A DNA stretch of 64,000 nucleotides, from NCBI RefSeq assembly GCF_019649055.1, contig NW_026570225.1:3410001-3474000 (forward strand), in the 5' to 3' direction. The DNA is from Paramacrobiotus metropolitanus (Eukaryota; Tardigrada; Eutardigrada; Parachela; Macrobiotidae). The notes under the pieces were generated by a model. It saw only the letters and a list, made by a program, of their open reading frames with translations. It did no database searches and had not been told where the DNA came from. Made by a program: the position numbers and the translations under genes. Below, piece after piece: positions 4,701-25,447 of the stretch (positions are counted from its first letter, which is position 1; the number at the start of each line of letters is the position of its first letter).

Positions 4701-7700
4701 GTTTCCAATTACTTCCGTGATAAATGTACTTGATGTACGCAAAATAACGCTTTTGTAGTCCACAAGTAACGCTTTCATGGCAAAGCCTTCGACATTGAAG
4801 CTATCCCAATTACTCGCACCGCGTCGCACCGGTCCAGAGAAGCGTACAAAGGCTGACAGCAGCGAAAATACTGTCTCAAATGACAAAATCATTTCTGAAG
4901 CCGGCATTCCAGCAGCGATCTGTAGGAAGAAAACAGGATGATCTACGAACCGTAGGCTATTAACATCTATTAGAGAGCTCAATGGACTCACCTCTTTACT
5001 GAGGAGTGCACTTAGCTGGATCATGAACGATGGTACAGATGGAAATGGGAAGGATTCCCAACCCAAACTCTCCACGATAACGCTAATCAAAACAGTCCAC
5101 GCTTCATAGCAGTCTCTTCGAGCCCGTATCAATCCCACTTGCAACGTCTCTTGCTCGATGTAGTCACAAATCGTTTTGAAGTCCTATAAACAGCGTCAAC
5201 CAATTCACCCAAATACCGATCATGAACAGTGGAACACAGGGTACACTGTGGAGCACTGAATCTAGTCTTAATACAGTGCTTTCATGACGTACGTGAACCA
5301 TATCAGCTCGACCCATTCCGTTTTCTTCGTATCCGTGGAGCAGTTCCCGAAGATACATCAGCGTTAAAGATGCATCATGGAGCACATGCCCGTCATCTGT
5401 GGTAATGCGAGAAGAATTCAAGGCGTCCTCTACATTAGCATAGTCCAAAAACTCCAGATTTAAGGAGCGCACCGATGCCGGTGGAGGCAGGGATAGCGTG
5501 ACCACCGACAGAAGCTGGCATGCCATGGAAGAATTGAATTCCTGCTGTCTGTTAACCTGTTCCGACGTCGACATACCACTTTCTGCAGTACTGGGGAAAG
5601 AACATAACCGAGATATCAATACGTTGGCAGATGGGATCATATATTCATCGATTAGGATACGGATCTCTTTGGCGACGATATGTAAAATGGCCTTCTGGTG
5701 ACGAAGCAGTGAATGGGTCGCATTATCACCTGCGTAATAAAAAAAATCGAAAAACACGAATGTCTTAAGACAGTCTTTGACTTTTCATTTCCATACAAAA
5801 TTACCATTGTCGACGAGCGGAAGCTGGCCGAGAAGCTTTTCCACACATAAATCACCAGCCCAATCATTTCTTAGGTAGCGAAGCACGTAAACACCGGTAG
5901 CTTGCTTTTGGCACAGAAAATCCAATATGTCGAGAGCTGTTTCAGTTACTGTCGGAATGAGTTCAAATAATACTCTGCCAGGTTCGATAAGCTCGAATAT
6001 TCGTGGTAGTGCAGCACTGGAAATGTTTTTTCCTAGTAGAAAACAGAGTAAGTTCACACTCGCAATAAATTAGCCTCAGTCATTTTTACCGAGTGACGAC
6101 GGTTGTACCGAACCATTTTGAAGGGGAAAACCCCAACAGCACTTGCGCCAAATTTGGAAATGAGCAGTTTTTTAGATTTCCTAGAATCATCTTTAGGGCG
6201 TCTTGCACCAGTTTGACAGATTCTAAAGCAAAAATATTAAGGCAAATATATCTGATAAATAATGCGGATTAACTAGCGATTATATACCGACAGATTCCAA
6301 GCGCCTGTTTTCTTGTTGAGTAGATTCCGGATCGATCACAATACAGCCGGCAAAGTTAGCAATCACCGTATTGTACAATCCCTAAAATACCCAAACTGAC
6401 CGAATTCACAACGTAAGGAGTTCTTTTACGTCATCATCCAAAATGTTAACAGTTTTCAGTACAAACTAAAGTATTAAAATGCACTAAATTTTCGTTGACC
6501 TGACCTCATCGTAGTACAGCACAGAGATCCAGTCCTTATGGTCTTGAACTCGACAAGTAACGAAACTGATAATTTCCAGAGCCAACTGAGCGATGCTCAA
6601 CCTTTTCGATCTGTACTTTAACAATCTGAAAAGCAAAAATAATCGAGGTAAGCAAGCTGAATTCAAAACTGAATTACGTAATAGCATACTTCATGAAAGT
6701 GAAAATAAAATCCTTTCTGGCAGACCGGTTGTTGATGGTCGTAGCAATGAGCGTGTCCAGTCCTACAGCCGAAGCATTGCGGTCGTGCTGTTTGAGGAAA
6801 TTCAAAAAGCCATCATGGTTATGGATCACACTGCAGAATATTTTAAGAATGCAGGAGACAACATCTTCCAAGCGACGGTGAACTAAACGTAAAAAAAATT
6901 CGAACACTGAAGTACCGAAGTTAAAATAATTCAAATATGGACTTCTTACCTCCATCGCTGTGGCTTTTATCGTACTCTTCCGAACAAACAGACAACCAGT
7001 TCAGCAACTGTAAGACAGACATCCGATTTATTAAAATTAGTACGTGCTAAAATAACCAAAGAACGCATGATTTATTCACATACTGCGAATAAATCGGACA
7101 TTTATTATTTTAAGTAACCCAGCTCCATACTTTATCAAAAAAAGTATGCCCTTCCAAAATCCTTTGTCGCAGAACGTAACCAGGATGCGTCGTTAACGCC
7201 GGAATGATGACGAAGCTCAGTTCATTCAAAGATGTGAGACATTTTTCAAAAAGTTGCAAACAGGATAGCAAGACGTCTAACTACAATCAAAGAACACAAA
7301 TATTAGCCCGGGATATGAGCGCAGAGAAGACATCATCTTAGACATGGGTAACGAGTAGCTGCTATAACGTTGCGCACTTACATGCTCTTGGGGGGTAGAA
7401 AAGCTTCTTTCATCCACTTTAGGAAAAAACAGCTTCATGAATGTATGAAGTGAACTCCTGGAACTGTTGCAGGAAATCGGGAGCTACAAGACACCGATGA
7501 TAAACGCAGCAATTCGCTGTGCAAGGAATTATACAAGAACCAAACTATCGTTGTACCTAATGCATGATCGGATAAGCTGCCAAAAATGCGCAACATGAGG
7601 AGAATTATAGCTTTCGTCACGGGATATTCACGATAGCGCACTTCCATTTCTTCTAGCTCTAGCTACAAAGACGGCAATGGAGAACATGGAGAGTTTCGAC

Positions 7701-10575: not shown

Positions 10576-10749
10576 GAGTCACATTTTACGCGACATTTAC
10601 TCTTTTGGTTTGTATGTCTAGTGCCTTTTATTTTTTTATTTGGCGATTTACTTCTTGTAATAAAACGTTCTGGCATTATTGAATAAAGGGACAAGTAGCG
10701 GCATGTAAAGGCAGTCAGTTGCATTCAAAGTTTTATTAGCTGCATATAA

Positions 10750-11085
10750 AGGACAGTAGCGGTGGATAATCGCCATTAGCGGTGGAGAAAGGTCGATAAA
10801 GGCCAGTAACGGTAGACAAAGGCCAGTAGCGATGGACAGAGACCAGTAGCGGTGAATAAAGGCCGATAGATACCAGTAGCGGTGAATAAAGACTAATAGC
10901 GGTGGATAAAGGCCAATAAAGGCCAGTAGCGGTGGATAGAGACCAGTAGCGGTGGATAGAGACCAGTAGCGGTGGATAGAGACCAGTAGCGGTGGATAGA
11001 GACCAGTAGCGGTGGATAAAGGCTAATAGCGTTGGATAAACGCCAATAAAGGCCAGTAGCGGTGGATAGAGACCAGTAGCGGTCT
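10750..11085. repeat. 20-bp minisatellite
   Basis: Tandem array with unit AGTAGCGGTGGATAGAGACC and the variant with GGATAAAGGCC. About fifteen units can be seen; the left ones are diverged and a run around 10930-11020 is nearly exact, which fits recent expansion by slippage or unequal exchange. No coding potential. Confidence 0.85.
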
Positions 11086-11099
11086 GAAGGCTTACTTAA

Positions 11100-12108
11100 A
11101 TACTATTTCAAAAAATTCGGTAGCGTGAAACTTGTATTTTTTGTCATTACAGGTTAAGTTCTTTTTATGTCCTGTACTTTGCTTTACTACTATTTGTTCT
11201 CCTTTACTATGTACTTTCTTAAAATGACTGCCCTTAAAATGACTTTTCCTCCAAATGTCTGCTATGGTCACTACTATGTATAGGAGGTAGTAAAATATTA
11301 AGATACAAACAGAAAGTACTAACAGTAACTAATGGTAATACAAGTAGTTTGGCTAGTACTACCAGACCAGCTTTGTTTGAGGTATGGAAGGATGAAAAAA
11401 ATACAAAATATACTCGTACGTCGTAACAGCAGTAAAAAAATTTTGAGAAATATTTCAAATATAAAACCTCTGCGAGGCCAGCTACGAAAATATTTTAAAC
11501 ATTTAGAAATGTGGAAAGTTTATTGGTTTTCAAGCTTTCCGGTTAAATTCGACCAGTTTTATGAAAACTGTGAAAGCCTCCGTAATTTTTTTTTCATGGT
11601 TCTTTTTAACGTTTTTAATGGAACTTTATACTGCCGATCTAAAGTACTGAAAACTTGAATTTTTGGTACGACAGATAATATTTAAACAGTGATAAAATGG
11701 TAGAGTGGGATCATTTACACGATGCCCATAAAAAACCATTTTTCAGCGCAGAATTAATGGAAACTTGTGGGGAACAGTTAACGGTCGCCCAAGGTGACCT
11801 CACATCACACCCAAGGTGACCTCATTTGCTACTACTGTAATTGTAAGATTTTTCAGCCATCAGTCAAGCTCTTCAGTATTTATCAAAATAAAATAAATAC
11901 ATATTTAGCAGATTTCGAGGTTAGTGAATGCCCAAGCTGTCACCAGTATCACAGAGCCGTACGAGAGTGAATACAAAAACAGACCGCGAACCGGCATTTA
12001 GATATTTAGAAATTACATATAAATTAGACAATTAAGACCGTGAGATATTGAGGTACTCAGACATTCCTAGACATTTTTAAAATTTCGAAACTCTGGAGGC
12101 TCAAAAAA
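11100..12108. other. AT-rich non-coding stretch
   Basis: No gene recognised. It holds a short tandem duplication of CCCAAGGTGACCTCA (near 11788 and 11811) and a weak match to the sequence at 9750 (GTAGAGTGGGATC), which may mark old transposon ends. Confidence 0.3.
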
Positions 12109-12750: not shown

Positions 12751-13655
12751 AATAAGGACGTAAGGATATATGAATCTATTGATAATTGTAAGATAATAAA
12801 TTCACAGAAAATATAGTGCTCCCTGAACTACAACAAGTTACTAATATCAACGACTGCGCTCTGATTGTACGTAAGTAAGAAATACTCTAATGTAGAAAAC
12901 GTAGCTACTAGAGGCTTTGAGCAGAAAACACCATAACCATACCTTAACCATCCCTTATCGTGTAGTTGGACGACCGCCATCGAGGTAGCAGTGTACAAAG
13001 TACTCAGCGAAGGCGCATAGCTGACTCTGGGTCCCTTCAGATTTAATTTGTTTTCTCGCACTGCGTGAAACGATCTCTTTCCAAAAAATTACATTTACAT
13101 TCAAAAATGTTTTCTCTATTCAAAAAGTGTATATCTGGGGAAGTTAAATTGGGCAGGTGTTAAGGGGAGCCTTTGAAAGTCCATCACCATACGACACGTT
13201 TGTATGGTATTCACACTTACCATACGCTCGCACTTAACCATATAGTATGGTTAAGTGTATGGCTATGGTTAAGTGGAGCAGTTGCTCACTAGAAGCTTTC
13301 GGCAAACGCTCCGCTTAACCATACCCATACACTAACCATACTGTATGGTTAAGTGCGAGCGTATGGTAAGTGCGGATACCATACAAACGCGTCGTATGGT
13401 GGTCGACTTCCAACGACTCCCCTTAACATTTGTGCAATCAAATTGCACTATATGTGCTTTTTTATAATACAGAAAACATTATTGAATACAAATATAATTT
13501 TTTCGATTGATGTCGTGCCATGTAGTGCGAGAGAAAAAATAAAACCTGAAGGCACTTAGAAGTCAGCAGCGCGATTTTGCTGAGTGTCTCATACACTGCC
13601 ACCTCCATGGCGGTCTACCACGACTTGATAAGAGATGGTTAAGGGATGGTTACGG

Positions 13656-16600
13656 GTACGCGTGTTATTACTATGCGATGAGGCGGAAATTCGATTTATG
13701 GCAAGCAATTACATTCGCAGCGTAAAATTAAGCTGTGGCTTGGCTGTCACCAGGCACACTACTTACGGGTGTTGACATTTTCAACTGAAAGTTTCATCTG
13801 CTATGAATTGCTAGGCTGGCCGAATTTTATTTTCGTAATAAATTGCTTATAGTATACCGACGTTTTTTTCATTTCTCAGTAGTACCATAATTTTCATTCC
13901 ACGCGAAGCTCCCTATCTTATCGCGGCATTATATCTACCGCACCTGCATCGATAGACAATCGAACCCACTTAACCTCTTTTTTTATTCTGTTTCAACTTT
14001 GCCAATTTGGCAGGTTGTTCAGACATTTTTTCCGGTCGCTTTTTTCCAAACTTATAATCAAAAAAGTCATCACGTTTGTTTTTAACATAATTTTTGAACA
14101 GTAAATTAAATACCTTGCGCAACAGATTATATTCTACCTCTACATAAGACTTACAGGGACAAAGATCTTACAACGGGTGAAAATCACTCAGATTCATTTT
14201 TAAGAGCATCAATTTGAGTATCACCGCTAAATGCGATTTACTTTTCACAAACGCTGGAATCTCTGTTACTTTTATAAATAAAGTGTAAGCGCGAGAGCAG
14301 AGGGTAAATGCTTGCTTTCGTGGTAAACAAAGCCCACCATACTCCGCGCGGCTTCTTGCACCAACATAAGCTGCACCAGGTAGCTCACTTCCTGAGGAGA
14401 AAACTTCCACTAACTGTCCACGACAACTATCACATTTCGACTTTTGGTCCGCAGTTCTAGCTAGCGCCGCGGTAACGTCAGCAATCGCGTTGTTAAACAG
14501 TCCAGCCAAACCAGCATCAGTATTTGTATCGTCTGAAATCAGATAAGGCAATCATCACAGACCGACATGAAAACGATTTTAATAATAATCATTCTTTTTA
14601 GCTATAAAATTCACGGTTTACCTAAAGTTTCCCAAGGGCACAGCACAATCTGTAGCATTTCCGAACAAATCCACAGCTTTCTGTCTTCACGCATCAACCT
14701 TTAAAATTAAAAAAAAACCGGAGATCAATTAAAGCATTTAAAAAATCAACGCTACCATACTTCTCCGTCCTGTCTTCAACAGGACAGGGCTCGGGGTCTC
14801 GAATAATTTCCAGTTCGTTTGAAAACGAAAAACAATAATCGCGAAGTGGGTGCCGGGATGTGCGCTGACGCTTAGGCAGCGGCTCATCAGAAATCTCGAT
14901 GATCCGTTTTCGGGTTTTGTAGCGGCTCCCAACATTCGGACTTTCGGTAAGCTGCTGGTAAGCTTCGATATGAGAAATATTCTGCCGTACTGTGGCCGCG
15001 GTAAGCTTCGTCGTTCCGAACTTAATCGCAGCATTCAGTTCCTGGAAAAGCTGAGTAATGTGTACATGACAATTTTGAAACATTAGTGTGAGAAATTAAA
15101 AAATTCATGCCACATGTTGCATAAAATTATTATCCACACAATAATTTCAGATAAATTTAAACAATTTACTTACTTCTATAGGATCGCTGCATTGTTTCCT
15201 GGCAAGTATGTACTCTGCGCCCGCTTCAAGAGAAATACGTGATATCTCCCTTATTCCATGTATAGTTGCATTCAAACCCAACCACGTTTGCCGGGGAAGT
15301 GACTGCAGAATACAATCAGGGTGGGGGCCAATGCCACTTAACGACTCCAACATCTCCTAAAAAACAAAAACATGAGAACGGTGAAAAAAACGGAAGCTTT
15401 GTTTATTTATAATAGTGTAATAAGCACACTTACATCAAATTTCGTATCAATATTGTTGAGAGTAATCACTTCAAAAAGAGGCTGCCTGAAACGCTGAGCT
15501 TGCTGGATTGAGGACGTCGTTAGAGGGTAATAAAAGCCCCGAACGAAATTGGCAAAGTTCAAAATTACTTGCAGTCCAAACCTAACAGCGTTCACGTCCT
15601 CTCGCCGAATTTCGGCGATTTTTATAAGCAACGGATGGTCTGGAGACTGAGTTGTCAGCATTGTCAGCGCCCCAACTGTGCGGTCTGTGAACAACTAAAA
15701 ACGCCAAAAAAGAGGAGATGACATAATTACTACTAAGTGCAATTATTACTATGTAATGTAACTACCACTAAATGCAGAAAGCCCCATTCACATAAATTTC
15801 TAAATTTGCGTATCGTTAAAACCTGCATTATTTAATTAACAAACAATTACTTACACCTTCCGCCGTTCTGGTACACATTTTTTCAAATGTGTTCGGCCAC
15901 AAAACTTTTCGTGTGATATCCGGAGCGTACTTAACTGGGGAACATCGTTCGATTTCAAAAAGTGTTTGGAGTAACGTGATATCAAAAATCCAGGATCCGA
16001 ACTAACATAAAAATAACACGAAATAGTACTGTAGTACGATGCACCATGTAAACACTAATTACACAATATATTATTAAGAATTGTCACCGTACTTACACAT
16101 AACCTTCCACCATTGGAAATTCGCAGGATATTCGCCCATATCCGTTTCAGCAAATGACTGATATCTAAAATAATAATTACGAACTGTTCCGGAAATAGCG
16201 GGTGTCTGAATCGCCAAGGAAACGTATTATCAACCACTCCCAGTATGCCACGGCATCCCGCGTTCTCAGCTCCGTGATCTGAGCACAGTCCATTAGCTCT
16301 GAATTTTGTATGCTGTCCGAGTAACCGAAGATTTCGAAGTAATATTTTGGCTAAGTCGCTTCCTTTCAAATTTTTGACAAAGTGATAGGATACTATCTTT
16401 CGCACGTTGCCGACTACGCTTTGGATAATGAATATAAGTACATTTTTTGCCGGTATCACTTCGTCATTGTTTTCAGCCAGTCCAATCACCGATCCATTGA
16501 TGTATTCAACTTGCTCCGTTTGATACGTAGCATCACAAATTAAATTAACATCGCGATTACTGTCCGGAATAGTTTCACAAAATTCGCCCAGTTTTATCAT

Positions 16601-19141
16601 ATGCTCAATATCTTCACCATCCTCAATATCCCACTGAGCGGTGTGATCACGCAGTGTGCGACTGTGAGGTAGAGCTGCACCTAAAACGCGGCGTAAAAAG
16701 CCATAACAGCCAGATGACAAATTTCGTGCCACAGCACACAGTCGTTTCATCCATGGTGAATAACGCCGCTGAGACGACTTTGTGGATGCGGAATTTATTA
16801 TTTCCTTTGCGAAGCGAGCAACCGAATGGATTTGCTGTTTGAGGATAAAATCAGTCTCCTCAGAACTTGCTTCTTCGTCTTCAGCACTTTCCCCATGAGC
16901 TTCAAAATCATAATTGGCGGATTCCGGTTCACTTTTGATCAGCTTCATCAGCTGATCACACTTAGTGTTGACGGCGCGACAATGATGCAGAATTTCTCGC
17001 TTCAATTCCTTGAAATTAAACATCAAGAGTTTTGTCAAACAACGACTGCTGGAAACATTCGAACAACCAATGCACTCCGTCACATCCGATGTTAGCACGG
17101 TGACGCCATTAAAACAAACAGCGGGAATCAAGTCTGACCGCATCCGTAAAACAAGTGCGTCTGTCGCAAAATTTTCATTTGCAGGCTCTGTCACGGTAAC
17201 CTTGCCCAACAGAATTTCGCTGTCGGAGCGAACCAGAACAGCAAATCCATGCTGATTGATCAGTTGATCATACCTAGCGTCGCAAAGGTTTTTCCAGAAT
17301 TTTCCTGCTATAATCTTTTCCTGTTCTTTGGCTGTGGATCGACCAATATCCCGTCTGGTGTTCTGCGAAATTTTAGTAAAATATGGCGATCCAGGGTGCT
17401 TCGTTGGTACAGCTGTTGGCTTCATTCTCGGGTATTTTCCGCGTAAAGATATATCACTTCGACGAAAATGCGCACTGCATATGTGGTGACTGGTGAGAAA
17501 GCCAGATTGTTCTAAATCTTTGCGTCCGCAAAATGCAAAAAAGGCTTTGTACCGCGCATCATTTTTATCCGGAACTTGGAAATAGGAAACGTCTTTTGAC
17601 TTGTCAGAGCGATTACTGCAGCCAAATACAACACAGATATACCCTCCGCGAACTACGGGTTCCGATTCCCGCTCGTAGTGATAAGGATTTATGCAGATTT
17701 CGCCTTTTTCCACGCAACACGTCTTTCTTTGTATAAGTTGCAACCCTGGCCCTCTGAAAGACCTTATGACTGCCTGATGCAGCGGAATTTCCCGATTATT
17801 GTGCTGAAAAATTATTTTGGTCAGATTAAGTTTACAATAAAACAAAATCAGATCGAATAGATTTATTGTCAGTATTGCAATATATATTATTCCACTTACA
17901 AAATTATGAGGTTTTGAAACTCGCAAATTACCACTTACTCGGATATAAAGGTCGTCGCCGCACGCAACACAACTGGTATCTAACGAATCTCCAGTCGCCA
18001 CGGCAGCGTACATCTTCTGCAGCATTTCCGAATCGGTTTTAAAAATCCGCACCAAATATTTTGACACTTTTTTAGCATAAGCAGTATGAACGTGCTGAGA
18101 TCGATGCAGGAAAAGTTTCTCAAACGGAGCCACATTTTCTGTAAACGACAAATGATTTTAAATGGTTAACTACCTCTCTTGAACACTTAATTGTAGGCAG
18201 TACATTGTCTTACCAAAAATGCCACATTGTTTTTCCTTTTCGATTTTTTCCTTAGCCAGTTTTCGGTCCAGTTTCTTTTTAGCTGAGCGTTTCTGACAGT
18301 ACTGCGACTTCTGCAATAATATTACAGTACAATAGCAATCGTACCTCGAACATACTGTCAGTACCTCCGTAGACCGTGCACTGGTGAAGAAGTAAGCAAT
18401 ATTGTGTATAGATTTACAATCGAATAACACGACAGTCGGTGGACAAAATCCATGGTAGTACCTTTTGTAAATCCAGTTCTGCGCGCTTCTCCTTGATGCG
18501 CTTCACTTGCTCTTCTGGTGCAGTTTTTAAATAATAGCTTTGCTGAAGGTGAGATAAGGAAAAGAATTCTTCGTCACTAATAAACTCACACTCATCAACT
18601 GTGGGCCGTAACTCTGCACTTGGCTCCTCCATACTGGCCACTGACGATTATTAGGCAGCAGATAAATTGGAATAAATTAAGATCGGAAATAGATATCTCG
18701 AATGCAAGCACCAAGTCAAAATAAGCCAGCATCCAGAAAACACGCAAGGGAGAAGCCGATATCGTCCGGCTGTGGCGTGTGTGCCATGCCCGAGCTAACA
18801 ACACGGATCAATCTGCAAAACCCACTCAGCTGATCAAGAAAGATGGCAGAGATAAGCAGAGGAAGGAGATGAAATATTACATCTTTACAACTCTGTGTAG
18901 AAATCAAATTACGTTCAAACTGAAAGTAAGACGAGGATACGAAAACGAAAATCTAAGAACCTTAGAACAGATAAAAATGTTCGATTTAATTTAAAAAACC
19001 AATATCCCTTCTCTGGCAGTATTGACACCCGTAGGTAGTATGCCTGGTGACAGCCAAGCCACAGCTTAATTTTACGCTGCGAATGTAATTGCTTGCCATA
19101 AATCGAATTTCCGCCTCATCGCATAGTAATAACACGCGTAC
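13656..19141. mobile_element. Intact P-superfamily DNA transposon, 5486 bp
   Basis: Terminal inverted repeats of 117 bp (13656-13772 and 19025-19141) start GTACGCGTGTTATTACTATG and differ at only two positions that I can see. The element is flanked by the direct repeat GTTACGG (13649-13655 and 19142-19148). Seven bases is one less than the usual 8 bp of P elements, so one copy may have lost its last match. Inside is one gene, a nine-exon transposase on the minus strand with no stop or frame break. Near-identical ends plus an open gene suggest a young element that may still be active. Confidence 0.88.
14168..18632 (-). CDS. P-element-type transposase with MH1 and THAP domains
   Basis: Nine exons: 18462-18632, 18214-18310, 17939-18138, 16097-17803, 15855-16001, 15434-15694, 15174-15356, 14699-15050, 14168-14532; they join in phase to 1160 aa. 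ATG 18632 is the first in frame. Residues 1-89 are acidic then Lys/Glu-rich. Residues 93-203 match the SMAD MH1 domain in order: AYAKKVSKYLVRIFK (helix), TSC146, NREIPLHQAVIRSFRGPGL, TCC (185-186), then EIC193INPYH198YERE, almost the SMAD VCVNPYHYERV. A THAP finger follows at about 212-290 (C212 x4 C217, HHICSAHF, TAVPT). The rest is a P-type RNase H-like core with insert: CDATYQTEQVEYINGSVIGL and SDHGAEN hold candidate catalytic Asp residues, and the last exon has GGLCLPRKQAFTLCSRA as in THAP9/P C-termini. By family it cuts and pastes the element using GTP; the MH1 domain probably adds DNA contacts, which is inference. Confidence 0.88.
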
Positions 19142-19170
19142 GTTACGGTGTCGTTTGCCGAAAGCCTCTA

Positions 19171-22248: not shown

Positions 22249-23961
22249 TCACTGAGACAGTTCACCAATTCTGTGTCTCAGCGGCATGTTGATCGTTGTC
22301 GCCAGAAGATTTGCCTCCTCTCGATCACCCGGAGCGTCCTCAAAAACTGTTTTCTGGTTATCGGTGACACGCCTTCGGCCATCTCCACTCCCGGCTCCAC
22401 CCTGAAACTCACCAGAGCCACGACCTCGCCCACCTCCGCGCCCATCCCCACCGCGACGACCGCGTCCACCTGGACGGCCACGACCGCCACGTTGTCCGTC
22501 ACCTCGAGTACGATCAGTGTCGGCGTACCGATTACCACCATCATTTTCGTAACCGTTTACCCTTTCCTGGCCATTAAACGACTCGCCATGTGGTGGACCT
22601 TGATTCCGAGGAGCCCCGCCGCCCCGACCACCGCGTCCCGGCACACCACCACCGCGTCCCATAGGAACTCCAGGACCCGCTCCCCGGCCACCTCGAAAGC
22701 CACCGCGATTCATCCCGCGAGGACCTGACATCATACCCAAATCATTGTCCGACATGTAATCCGATGGGCCATGATTTATACGTGGCCCCATTCCATCTCC
22801 GGGAACCATTTTCAACGATCGCAACTGCTGGTTTAATTCGCTGGATTCTTGTCGCAGCTGTTCCAGTTCACGCAGATGAGTCAGATGAAATTCCAGTAAC
22901 ATGCGAGCGTTGGCAATGGCTTCAGCCAAACCGACAAACACAAACGGAATATGCCCCTCCAGGCGATGCGCTGTGTTTGGTTCGTTTTCGCCCTCCACTT
23001 TAACGCGTACGACGCCTGAACCATCTACGATTTCTTGAATCAGATGTCCATTCTTGCCGATAACTTTTCCAACCATAGGAGCTGGAATCTGTACGACGTC
23101 TTCGCAAAATTCCAACAGGGCACGGGCTTTTTTCACCCCTTCTTCGGTTTCGCCTCGCACGGTGAACGTACCTGTACTATCGTCCAAATCAACCCAGACA
23201 TCCTTAATGCGGCGTGCTGTTTTGATATTACTTCCTTCCGCTCCGATAGCCAAACCCATGAGATCTATGGGGACAGTGAAGACCTCCACAAATTTGGCGG
23301 TAGACGGTTGGCGTGAATAATCTGTCATCTTTTTCACGGTATCATCCCGTTTGCTCATGAGCATTTGTTTCTGTTTCATGCTTCGAAAGAACAACGGAGC
23401 CAACATACTTGCGCGCTTCAGTGTATTTTCATTGGAGGAAATAACAATAAGGCTTTTAGCGTTGGGCTTGTCGTCAAATCGCACCACACCGGCTTTCGTT
23501 CGTTCCTGGAATTCACGCAACGTTTCAGGCCGCTTAGCGATATCCACTACCTCTTCTGGCAATTCGATGGGCAGTTTCTTGAAGCTGTTCGATGAGATGA
23601 CTGAACGATGGGGGAGCAGGCGCCGCACTGACTCATTAGGAACGATTTCTTGACGCACTTCCGCATCGGATATCTTAATGTCGACCACAAGAAATTCGCC
23701 TTTGACAATTTTGACATGAGCGCGGTACCATCCGCTGGGCTCCTGTTCTGAAGGTCGAAAGAACACTTCGACATCCTCGCCAGCCTGGATGTTGGGAGTG
23801 GGGGCTTTCAGTGGAAGATACACTTCACTGAACGGGACGATCTGGTCCGGCTTCCAGTTGTTCTCATAGGACAACAGGACCCCGTTCGGAAGAATATCCA
23901 CAACGGAGGCACGATAGAGAACTCCGTTGGCACCCACCACTTCCACGCTCAAGTCTTCCAT
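22249..23961 (-). CDS. FMR1/FXR family RNA-binding protein, coding region without introns
   Basis: Cytoplasmic translational regulator that binds mRNA and ribosomes. One uninterrupted frame of 570 aa from ATG 23961. Two N-terminal Agenet/Tudor repeats (about 1-120; [17 protein letters not shown] and [20 protein letters not shown]) are followed by KH1 (about 222-285; GxxG loop GAEG at 240-243) and KH2 (about 287-360; GKNG at 302-305, then [15 protein letters not shown]). A Leu-rich helix at 355-384 ([18 protein letters not shown]) fits the nuclear export region. Residues 410-560 are Gly/Arg-rich, with many RGG/GRG units (the RGG box). The KH2 Ile equivalent to human Ile304 is present (residue 308). 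Vertebrates have three paralogues and flies one; I cannot say which is closest. The absence of introns is odd for this family. Confidence 0.95.
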
Positions 23962-25447
23962 GGTGATGAAGTCCAGAATTGTGAGTTGATAGGATACTAC
24001 ACTCAACCTAACGTCATACAAAACTTCAAACATACAGCGCCGGATCAAGTAATCAGGGCAATTTTTCAAAAGCAGCGTATCAGAAAAGACTAAGGCTTTA
24101 TAATACAAAAATCCTCTTATATTCAGGAAATGAAAACTATTTCAAGTTTACCTACTTTACCATTTAGTCACTTTGTGCACCGATATTAAACTCGATACTA
24201 CAAAGTAAAAAACAAACGCGGAACCTTAAACGTCAAACTTCTATTTTTATGAGCCAATAGATAGCTTATAACTGTCACTGGCTTTGTAAGCCCTTTTATC
24301 ATTAGTGCTGGTTGCTGAATAACTTTCAGTCTTCACAAAAAAGTATGAAATACGTACGCTCTAGCGCTGTACTATAAGAAGTCCAGCAGAGATCATAATG
24401 CAGAAAACCAGCAGAGATCATAATGCGCAATGAGCAGAAAACCTATTACCGCGTGAACTGACTGCAAATCTGTAACAAAATTAAACTGCTACTTAGCTAT
24501 TAAAGTCAAAATCCCAGATTCTGTTGGCGCAGCGCACTTCTCATTTCACTGTTAAAGTTCGCCGATACAGCACATTGGAAGAACTTCAGCATCATACTTT
24601 ATAGCTCGATTACGATCACTACTCGAACCTAGCTTTACAGCGTGAAGTTACACTGATCTAAAGCTAATGAACGAATTAAAAAAATCGGAATCCCCCAGTT
24701 CACTTACCGTTGTGATGGAAATTATATCAGCAAGGTTGAGGTATTTTGAGAAGGTCCCGAAAGATGGAAAATCCGAAAACTCGTCAGATTTTTAAATGAG
24801 GAGTGCTCCACAGTCTCAAAAGCAGCAGCACGACTATCGTCCACATTGACCTCGGTTCGGGATGGCACGGCTCACGGGTCGGTCAGCTTCGCTCCTTCCG
24901 GCGTTTTCCAGCTGCAGTTCCAAAATTTAGCTAGCGAGTTATGAATAGTTAGCTCATTTGCGCACCCTATAAACGACCAGCAACACTACTTAAATCATAT
25001 TAAATGGCACTTCGATTTCATTAATCAAGTTAACAGTGTTAACTCCATTAATTTTTTTTAAGATTTGAGTTTTGTTGTACTTTGTATTGATATAATGATA
25101 TTGATGGTTAATAACTTATGATACCGGCTAAGTTACAAATTCGGTCTCATCGGCGACCGGAAACCGACTGACCGTTTCTCGGCGCTTACGACAGTAGTAA
25201 GGTAACTATGGTAGCTCGCGCCTCCTGGATCAGTCAGCGTTGAAATCTACTGCCCCCTCCCCATCAGTCGAAATTACTGAAGCCATGAAGCGATTTCAAT
25301 TTTGAATTTTTTTATTCTGTGCCGTATGGTATTCGAGCTGATTGTAAAATTAGTGATCATCTGCGCTCACTAAATCAGCTGATCACTGTTATTCGTTTGC
25401 TCAGTATTTTTTAATTCGGTATCAGCCGTAGGACGGTTTAGGAAAAA
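23962..25447. other. Intergenic region, 1.5 kb
   Basis: Divergent spacer between the FMR1/FXR gene (minus) and CCDC86 (plus), so it must hold both promoters. Around 24389-24440 a 25-bp piece with GCAGAGATCATAATGC occurs twice in tandem. No gene seen. Confidence 0.4.

Follow-up and report, generated by a model that had tools for sequence, protein, structure and literature searches.

The LOC129580814 Locus and Its Product

The window analyzed here is a stretch of 64,000 nucleotides of the Paramacrobiotus metropolitanus genome (assembly GCF_019649055.1, contig NW_026570225.1, positions 3,410,001 to 3,474,000). Its minus strand carries a ten-exon gene, the spliced model of which is identical to isoform X1 (1162 aa) of the RefSeq gene LOC129580814; both the hand splice model of exons 1-4 and the full spliced alignment match this isoform (Table 1). 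RefSeq also lists isoform X2 of 457 aa, in which exon 3 is spliced to exon 7. An earlier note on this DNA had given the product 1160 rather than 1162 residues, and had set the limits of two exons (17939-18138 and 16097-17803) where the RefSeq protein has them. The gene is enclosed by terminal inverted repeats (TIRs) and a 7-bp target duplication, and its product combines a THAP finger with an RNase H domain of the P type, in which a candidate DDE triad is present; by these features, LOC129580814 is assigned to a DNA transposon of the P superfamily.

Table 1. Features of the transposable element and of gene LOC129580814, with positions in the window
Feature	Positions	Strand	Basis or remark
Complete P-superfamily element, 5486 bp	13656..19141	- (gene strand)	TIRs and target duplication
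Left target-site duplication GTTACGG, 7 bp	13649..13655	.	flank comparison
Left terminal inverted repeat, 117 bp, starts GTACGCGTG	13656..13772	+	repeat comparison
Right terminal inverted repeat	19025..19141	-	115/117 identical to left
Right target-site duplication GTTACGG	19142..19148	.	flank comparison
Exon 1	18462..18632	-	start codon at 18632; exons 1 and 2 encode the Maf-like segment (borderline), aa 19-83
Exon 2	18214..18310	-	spliced alignment
Exon 3	17939..18138	-	18073-17939 encodes the first half of MH1, including zinc ligand C146
Intron inside MH1, phase 0	17804..17938	-	host SMAD4 intron position; splice as in RefSeq protein
Exon 4	16097..17803	-	second MH1 half 17803-17669 and THAP 17635-17399 in one open frame
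RNase H N-terminal part (in exon 4)	16591..16253	-	D580 and D665; same open frame
Exon 5	15855..16001	-	spliced alignment
Exon 6	15434..15694	-	spliced alignment
Exon 7	15174..15356	-	ends with the codon of E922, which is proposed as the third catalytic residue
Exon 8	14761..15041	-	spliced alignment
Exon 9	14622..14698	-	spliced alignment
Exon 10	14168..14532	-	stop codon 14170-14168

In the Pfam scans, the THAP finger (aa 213-291) scored 50.7-52.1 bits in the RefSeq protein and a 725-aa spliced model (cut-off 23.9), the P-type RNase H N-terminal domain PF21787 (aa 561-673) scored 34.8-36.2 bits (cut-off 24.6), and the P-element helix-turn-helix domain PF12017 reached 19.1-21.4 bits in the window protein, the cut-off being 23. 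Neither a GTP-binding domain nor an MH2 domain was matched in the 1162-aa RefSeq protein at E 0.1; having no MH2 match, the window protein is therefore not a SMAD. The families PF21788, PF21789, and PF22824 are listed for the THAP9-type matches found outside the species, and it is presumably among these three that the GTP-binding part lies.

Two further features of the window were observed outside the element. An open frame on the minus strand at 22249-24141 resembles FMR1 (KH-type and Tudor-like sequence, judged by eye) and represents a host gene adjoining the element. A tandem repeat at about 10650-11100 can be read as TGLYPPLL-type peptides in several frames.

An MH1 Domain Precedes the THAP Finger

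Residues 112-201, in front of the THAP finger, match the MH1 family (PF03165) at 29.5 bits in the 725-aa spliced model and at 28.6 bits in the 1162-aa RefSeq protein, the two sequences that were scored (cut-off 25). The presence of an MH1 domain before the THAP finger of a P-element transposase had been claimed in the earlier note, which proposed a profile search of the product against both families; with both domains above their Pfam cut-offs and an RNase H domain after them, the claim holds, while the interval proposed for the domain, 17750-18140, proved too short for its two coding parts (Table 1). The zinc ligands of the CCCH type (C146, C185, C193, and H198) are present in the window copy and kept in all four modeled copies, with the five-residue spacing between the last Cys and the His (C193 to H198) that the earlier note had given, and the segment EICINPYHYERE is encoded at 17701-17666.

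Compared with the sequences in the PDB, the MH1 region of the window protein matches the MH1 domains of SMAD3 and SMAD4 (E about 5e-4). At E <=0.1, a profile built from seven element-type MH1s found 14 different sequences in the PDB, all of them SMAD MH1 domains; the best match (E 4e-15) is named only 'Mothers against decapentaplegic homolog', and the second and third are human SMAD4. The profile-profile comparison of the same seven MH1s with five host SMADs gave 99.4%. The spliced MH1 scan covered five copies beyond the window, with C17, C21, C89, and C29 left out (C-numbers denote contigs of the same P. metropolitanus assembly, C5 being that of the window). Since all five outscore the window copy (C155, 36.0-36.2 bits; C370, 39.6; C99, 47.3-47.8; C20, 48.8-49.0; C1, 49.6), its own match is beyond chance.

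Two AlphaFold models of low confidence were compared with known folds, namely a full-length model (nine alignment rows, mean pLDDT 35.8) and a 224-residue model (12 rows, SMAD rows excluded, mean pLDDT 40.1). Foldseek returned no match at E 0.001 for either of them, and SMADs were absent among the fold matches listed (the best 50 of 95 in one search); the predicted order of helices and strands is MH1-like and was given no weight. Because these models are poor and lack fold matches, it is on sequence and not on fold that we identify the region before the THAP finger as an MH1 domain.

Two Families of MH1-THAP Loci in the Assembly

Searches of the same assembly revealed ten loci with an MH1 adjoining a THAP finger, which constitute two diverged families, family A (the window copy on C5, C17, C370, C21, and C155) and family B (C99, C89, C20, C29, and C1). 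A search of the assembly with MH1 gave 24 matches, including five from family B and two in PR-domain genes; the rest are SMAD-type genes among those inspected, some having been left out. Family A is missing from these genomic matches because an intron splits its MH1. Transposase sequence lies downstream in six of the ten loci (C5, C370, C21, C99, C20, and C29); it is truncated and contains a stop in C21 and is interrupted by stops in C29. The C89 copy is an internal deletion of the C99 element, a frameshift interrupts exon 3 of the C17 copy, and the stretches examined at C17, C155, and C1 contained no transposase sequence.

Seven elements have both ends readable, including a short piece on C18 described below; perfect 7-bp duplications flank six of them, and in C20 six of the seven bases agree. 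In C370, C99, and C20, the open frame could be traced as far as the C-terminal end that the copies share, in models with first exons that are hand-set or unsettled and, for C20, with a path routed round a frame difference from C29. Together with the window protein, these models align over their length, and the three candidate acidic residues (D580, D665, and E922 in the window protein), a triad assigned by alignment and not by structure, are kept in all four. In the region C155:110500-120000, at an offset of about 5027-6304, we observed four open exons for a protein with a Maf-like segment, MH1, and THAP, and a stop soon after the THAP finger, while the 3.2 kb downstream contained no transposase; the C155 locus is a candidate domesticated transcription factor.

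Additional Segments in Front of MH1

The two families differ in the segment that precedes MH1. As judged by Pfam scores well above the cut-off of 21.1 bits (C99, 37.8-39.9; C20, 53.8-55.3; C1, 54.7), family B has the zinc finger of the nuclear-receptor DNA-binding domain (zf-C4) before MH1, and the window copy has none of that kind; a receptor ligand-binding domain was not seen in the Pfam scans made. The N-terminal segment of family A resembles the extended homology and basic regions of Maf proteins, and no leucine zipper was matched. The bZIP_Maf score of this segment, for which the cut-off is 22 bits, is 14.2-17.3 in the window copy, and in C155 it depends on the model (18.3 for exon 1 alone, 20.2 for a 297-aa model, 22.8 with the aligner's junction, and 24.5 with a hand-set junction); the Pfam scan gave no match in C17 or C370. 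When a four-copy profile of the segment was compared with the PDB, Maf chains were the best six of 19 rows (E 4.7e-4 to 4.3e-3). The likeness of family B to nuclear receptors is thus carried by zf-C4, and that of family A to Maf bZIP proteins is borderline at best. Genome searches gave 63 matches for zf-C4 and six for bZIP_Maf.

Origin of the MH1 Domain

The host gene on C2 corresponds to SMAD4 (E 2e-54 to human SMAD4 versus 3e-33 to other named SMADs) and contains a phase-0 intron inside its MH1. A phase-0 splice at this position is available in all seven element-type MH1s and in both PR-gene MH1s, and in both types the intron is separated from a conserved basic residue by the same 14 codons as in host SMAD4, whereas in the host R-SMADs on C34 and C4 the MH1 intron lies nine codons further on. 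The SMAD4-position splice is the only or best-scoring site in five of the nine sequences (C12, C370, C20, C99, and C1) and is tied in three (window, C166, and C155), where the RefSeq proteins use it for the window and C166 genes; in C21 it ranks second, after an intron of 31 bp, an implausibly small size. The intron of the window copy measures 135 bp and is in frame and stop-free, so that a transcript retaining it would encode an MH1 hairpin longer by 45 residues.

On the phylogenetic tree, the MH1s of the elements and of the PR genes cluster together (support 99/98) outside the R-SMADs (93/97), although a placement with the R-SMADs was not rejected by the AU test (p 0.32). The element MH1 shares with that of SMAD4 the CCCH zinc ligands, the NPYHYER motif, and the phase-0 intron position. 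The shared intron, SMAD4 as the nearest of the named matches, and the tree position outside the R-SMADs, which is not decisive, together favor capture from a SMAD4-type gene; most likely, the MH1 was acquired as genomic DNA with its intron.

Element-type MH1s also occur in two host PR-domain genes, located on C12 and C166. The C12 gene, as spliced by the aligner, encodes in one frame MH1 (41.5 bits), a clear THAP (30.1 bits), and the PR domain (74.3 bits). The C166 RefSeq protein, annotated as 'PR domain zinc finger protein 4-like', scores 32.1 bits for MH1 and 61.7 bits for PR; THAP was not found in scans of this protein and reaches 25.3 bits only when the locus is read across a frameshift.

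The PR-domain (PRDM2_PR) matches in the assembly are mostly clustered, on contigs C17, C12, C73, and C104. One cluster on C12 contains the MH1-THAP-PR gene and a SMAD4-like gene with a single-exon MH1 (C12:1832082), and the broken MH1-THAP fragment on C17 sits between two PR matches.

Most simply, the PR genes would have gained their MH1 by exaptation from an element of this type, as their MH1s lie among the element MH1s on the tree. The reverse order, in which a host gene, for example one of the PR genes on C12 and C166, first brought MH1 and THAP together and P elements took up the ready-made piece, would fit the SMAD4-like VAGRK/ISGKK that the PR genes keep after the intron, the position of their MH1s beside family A (90/87), and the abundance of clustered PR-domain genes (85 matches). 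We consider this order unlikely, since THAP is native to P-superfamily transposases, as indicated by PMC4168063 and by the THAP9 matches, and since the PR-gene MH1s lie among those of the elements, although an MH1 clade of elements without the PR genes was not rejected (AU test, p 0.156).

Another alternative concerns the present state of LOC129580814, which might be a domesticated host gene and no longer a working transposon. The assembly searches gave a single full-length copy with the TIRs of the window, and RefSeq lists the locus as a gene with two isoforms, which would fit domestication. However, near-identical TIRs and an exact target duplication flank the gene, the acidic triad is intact in the four protein models, and a derivative is found at a second site. 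The genome search with the 117-bp repeat gave four matches, namely the two ends in the window and a pair of arms that face each other on C18, which belong to a piece of 430 bp (C18:209423-209852) with the duplication CTTCAAC on both sides. One part of this piece corresponds to the terminal 291 bases of the element on the side of the gene 3' end (97.9%), and the other repeats the terminal 135 bases in inverted orientation (100%); the piece is interpreted as a derivative that a transposase of the window type has moved. With traces of mobility that comprise derivative copies as well as target duplications, domestication of the window gene appears improbable.

Whether the MH1 domain was captured from a SMAD gene or was itself of transposon origin had been left open by the earlier note, and the intron position, the matches, and the tree favor the former, with a SMAD4-type donor. 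A birth of MH1 in transposons, followed by its transfer to SMAD4, is very hard to credit: SMADs presumably occur throughout animals and MH1 transposases were met in this species only, within limited searches, and the element and PR-gene MH1s have seven residues between the second and third Cys, fewer than SMAD4 and compared with at least 11 in the seven SMAD rows of the tree. In its favor is the transposon origin of several DNA-binding domains of regulators, described in PMC10027918.

The least credible alternative, that the reader and the gene predictor joined exons of two neighboring genes, could appeal to the intron that splits MH1, and is practically dismissed by the 1707-bp open exon 4 of the window with the second MH1 half, THAP, and the RNase H part. 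In nine of the ten loci, the frameshifted C29 being the exception, a single open frame runs from the second MH1 half to the C..HF ligands of THAP, which excludes a splicing artifact for that part. In four of the five family-B loci (C20, C99, C89, and C1), one open frame also covers the first half of MH1 together with the second module of zf-C4.

Thus, we conclude with considerable confidence that the window contains a complete tardigrade transposon of the P superfamily, the transposase of which has gained a SMAD4-derived MH1 domain before its ancestral THAP finger.

Selective Constraint and DNA-Contact Residues

Pairwise dN/dS ratios between copies were calculated by the Nei-Gojobori method. 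For MH1, the ratios are 0.14 for the window copy and C17 (second half only), 0.41 for C370 and C21, 0.21 for C20 and C1, and 0.54 for C99 and C89, where with six differences constraint is not evident; three of the four usable pairs therefore show constraint on MH1. The THAP ratios in six pairs range from 0.07 to 0.24. For zf-C4, we obtained 0.23 for C20 and C1, and 1.09 for C99 and C89, a pair with five differences in which constraint is not evident. The comparisons of the window copy with C155 (MH1) and of C20 with C99 (MH1 and zf-C4) are saturated and give no ratio.

The residues by which the MH1 hairpin of SMAD3 contacts DNA (R74, Q76, and K81) are not conserved in the aligned elements, and the element domain thereby differs from that of SMAD4 in its contact residues as well. 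With the hairpin residues changed, the site of the element MH1 need not be SMAD-like. The binding words of SMAD, Maf, and nuclear receptors are nearly absent from the left TIRs of five elements, where the C99 repeat has one Maf-like TGCTGA, and those of C370 and C21 have a single GCGCC apiece.

Comparison with Known Systems and Proposed Mechanism

No description of a transposase with an MH1 domain was found among the titles and abstract openings listed from the open-licence PMC literature, and SMAD MH1 domains and transposases appear as separate families in PMC3472317. A set of 5.8 billion proteins gave nine matches outside the species, of which eight are named THAP9 and one has no name, and MH1 is not among the Pfam domains listed for any of them; these searches need shared words, cap the number of candidates, and have length limits, and the profile search missed the window's own protein. 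Like the P element/Galileo/1360, THAP9, and Pdre2, the element of the window combines a THAP finger, an RNase H-type transposase, and TIRs; unlike them, it has an MH1 domain before THAP, preceded in family B by a receptor-type finger. Long TIRs and mostly 7-bp duplications are reported for Galileo in PMC3688188 and PMC4168063, and 8-bp duplications for the zebrafish Pdre2 in PMC10983969. According to the former account of Galileo (PMC3688188), its THAP domain binds sites inside the element ends, several of which occur in the long repeats, and specificity is suggested there to arise from the large number of short sites.

We propose that the MH1-THAP transposase would bind its long TIRs via both domains together, which would create a composite site and a higher specificity, MH1 adding a second contact within the repeats of 94 to 143 bp that occur in the family. 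The bound transposase would then cut and paste the element with its RNase H-type DDE domain.

Implications for Domain Exchange between Transposons and Host

Transposases are a known source of domains for host transcription factors, THAP included. In the host-transposase fusion genes reportedly described by Cosby et al. in 2021, as in the case presented here, DNA-binding domains of transposases and host domains are joined. Unlike in these fusions, a host DNA-binding domain has probably entered a transposase in the window, and the PR-domain genes may represent the return trip. Co-option of THAP in host genes is covered by PMC10027918.

A broader reading, which we put forward tentatively and consider less likely than not, is that this P-element lineage is a collector of DNA-binding domains of host regulators, with the SMAD4 MH1 as a standing part of the transposase, receptor- or Maf-type domains added before it in separate families, and the MH1-THAP unit returned to PR genes. 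If so, the element ends would be recognized by a multi-domain code, or the added domains might steer the transposase to places that SMAD, Maf, or receptor proteins occupy, and integration could then be tied to host signaling.

For the MH1 domain itself, SMAD4, a core signaling factor, would be the source and a transposase the recipient, the intron marking the donor, and the PR genes may have received the domain in turn. The tardigrade elements may thus offer a testable case of the exchange of DNA-binding domains between transposons and their host, and of whether stacked domains sharpen the recognition of transposon ends.
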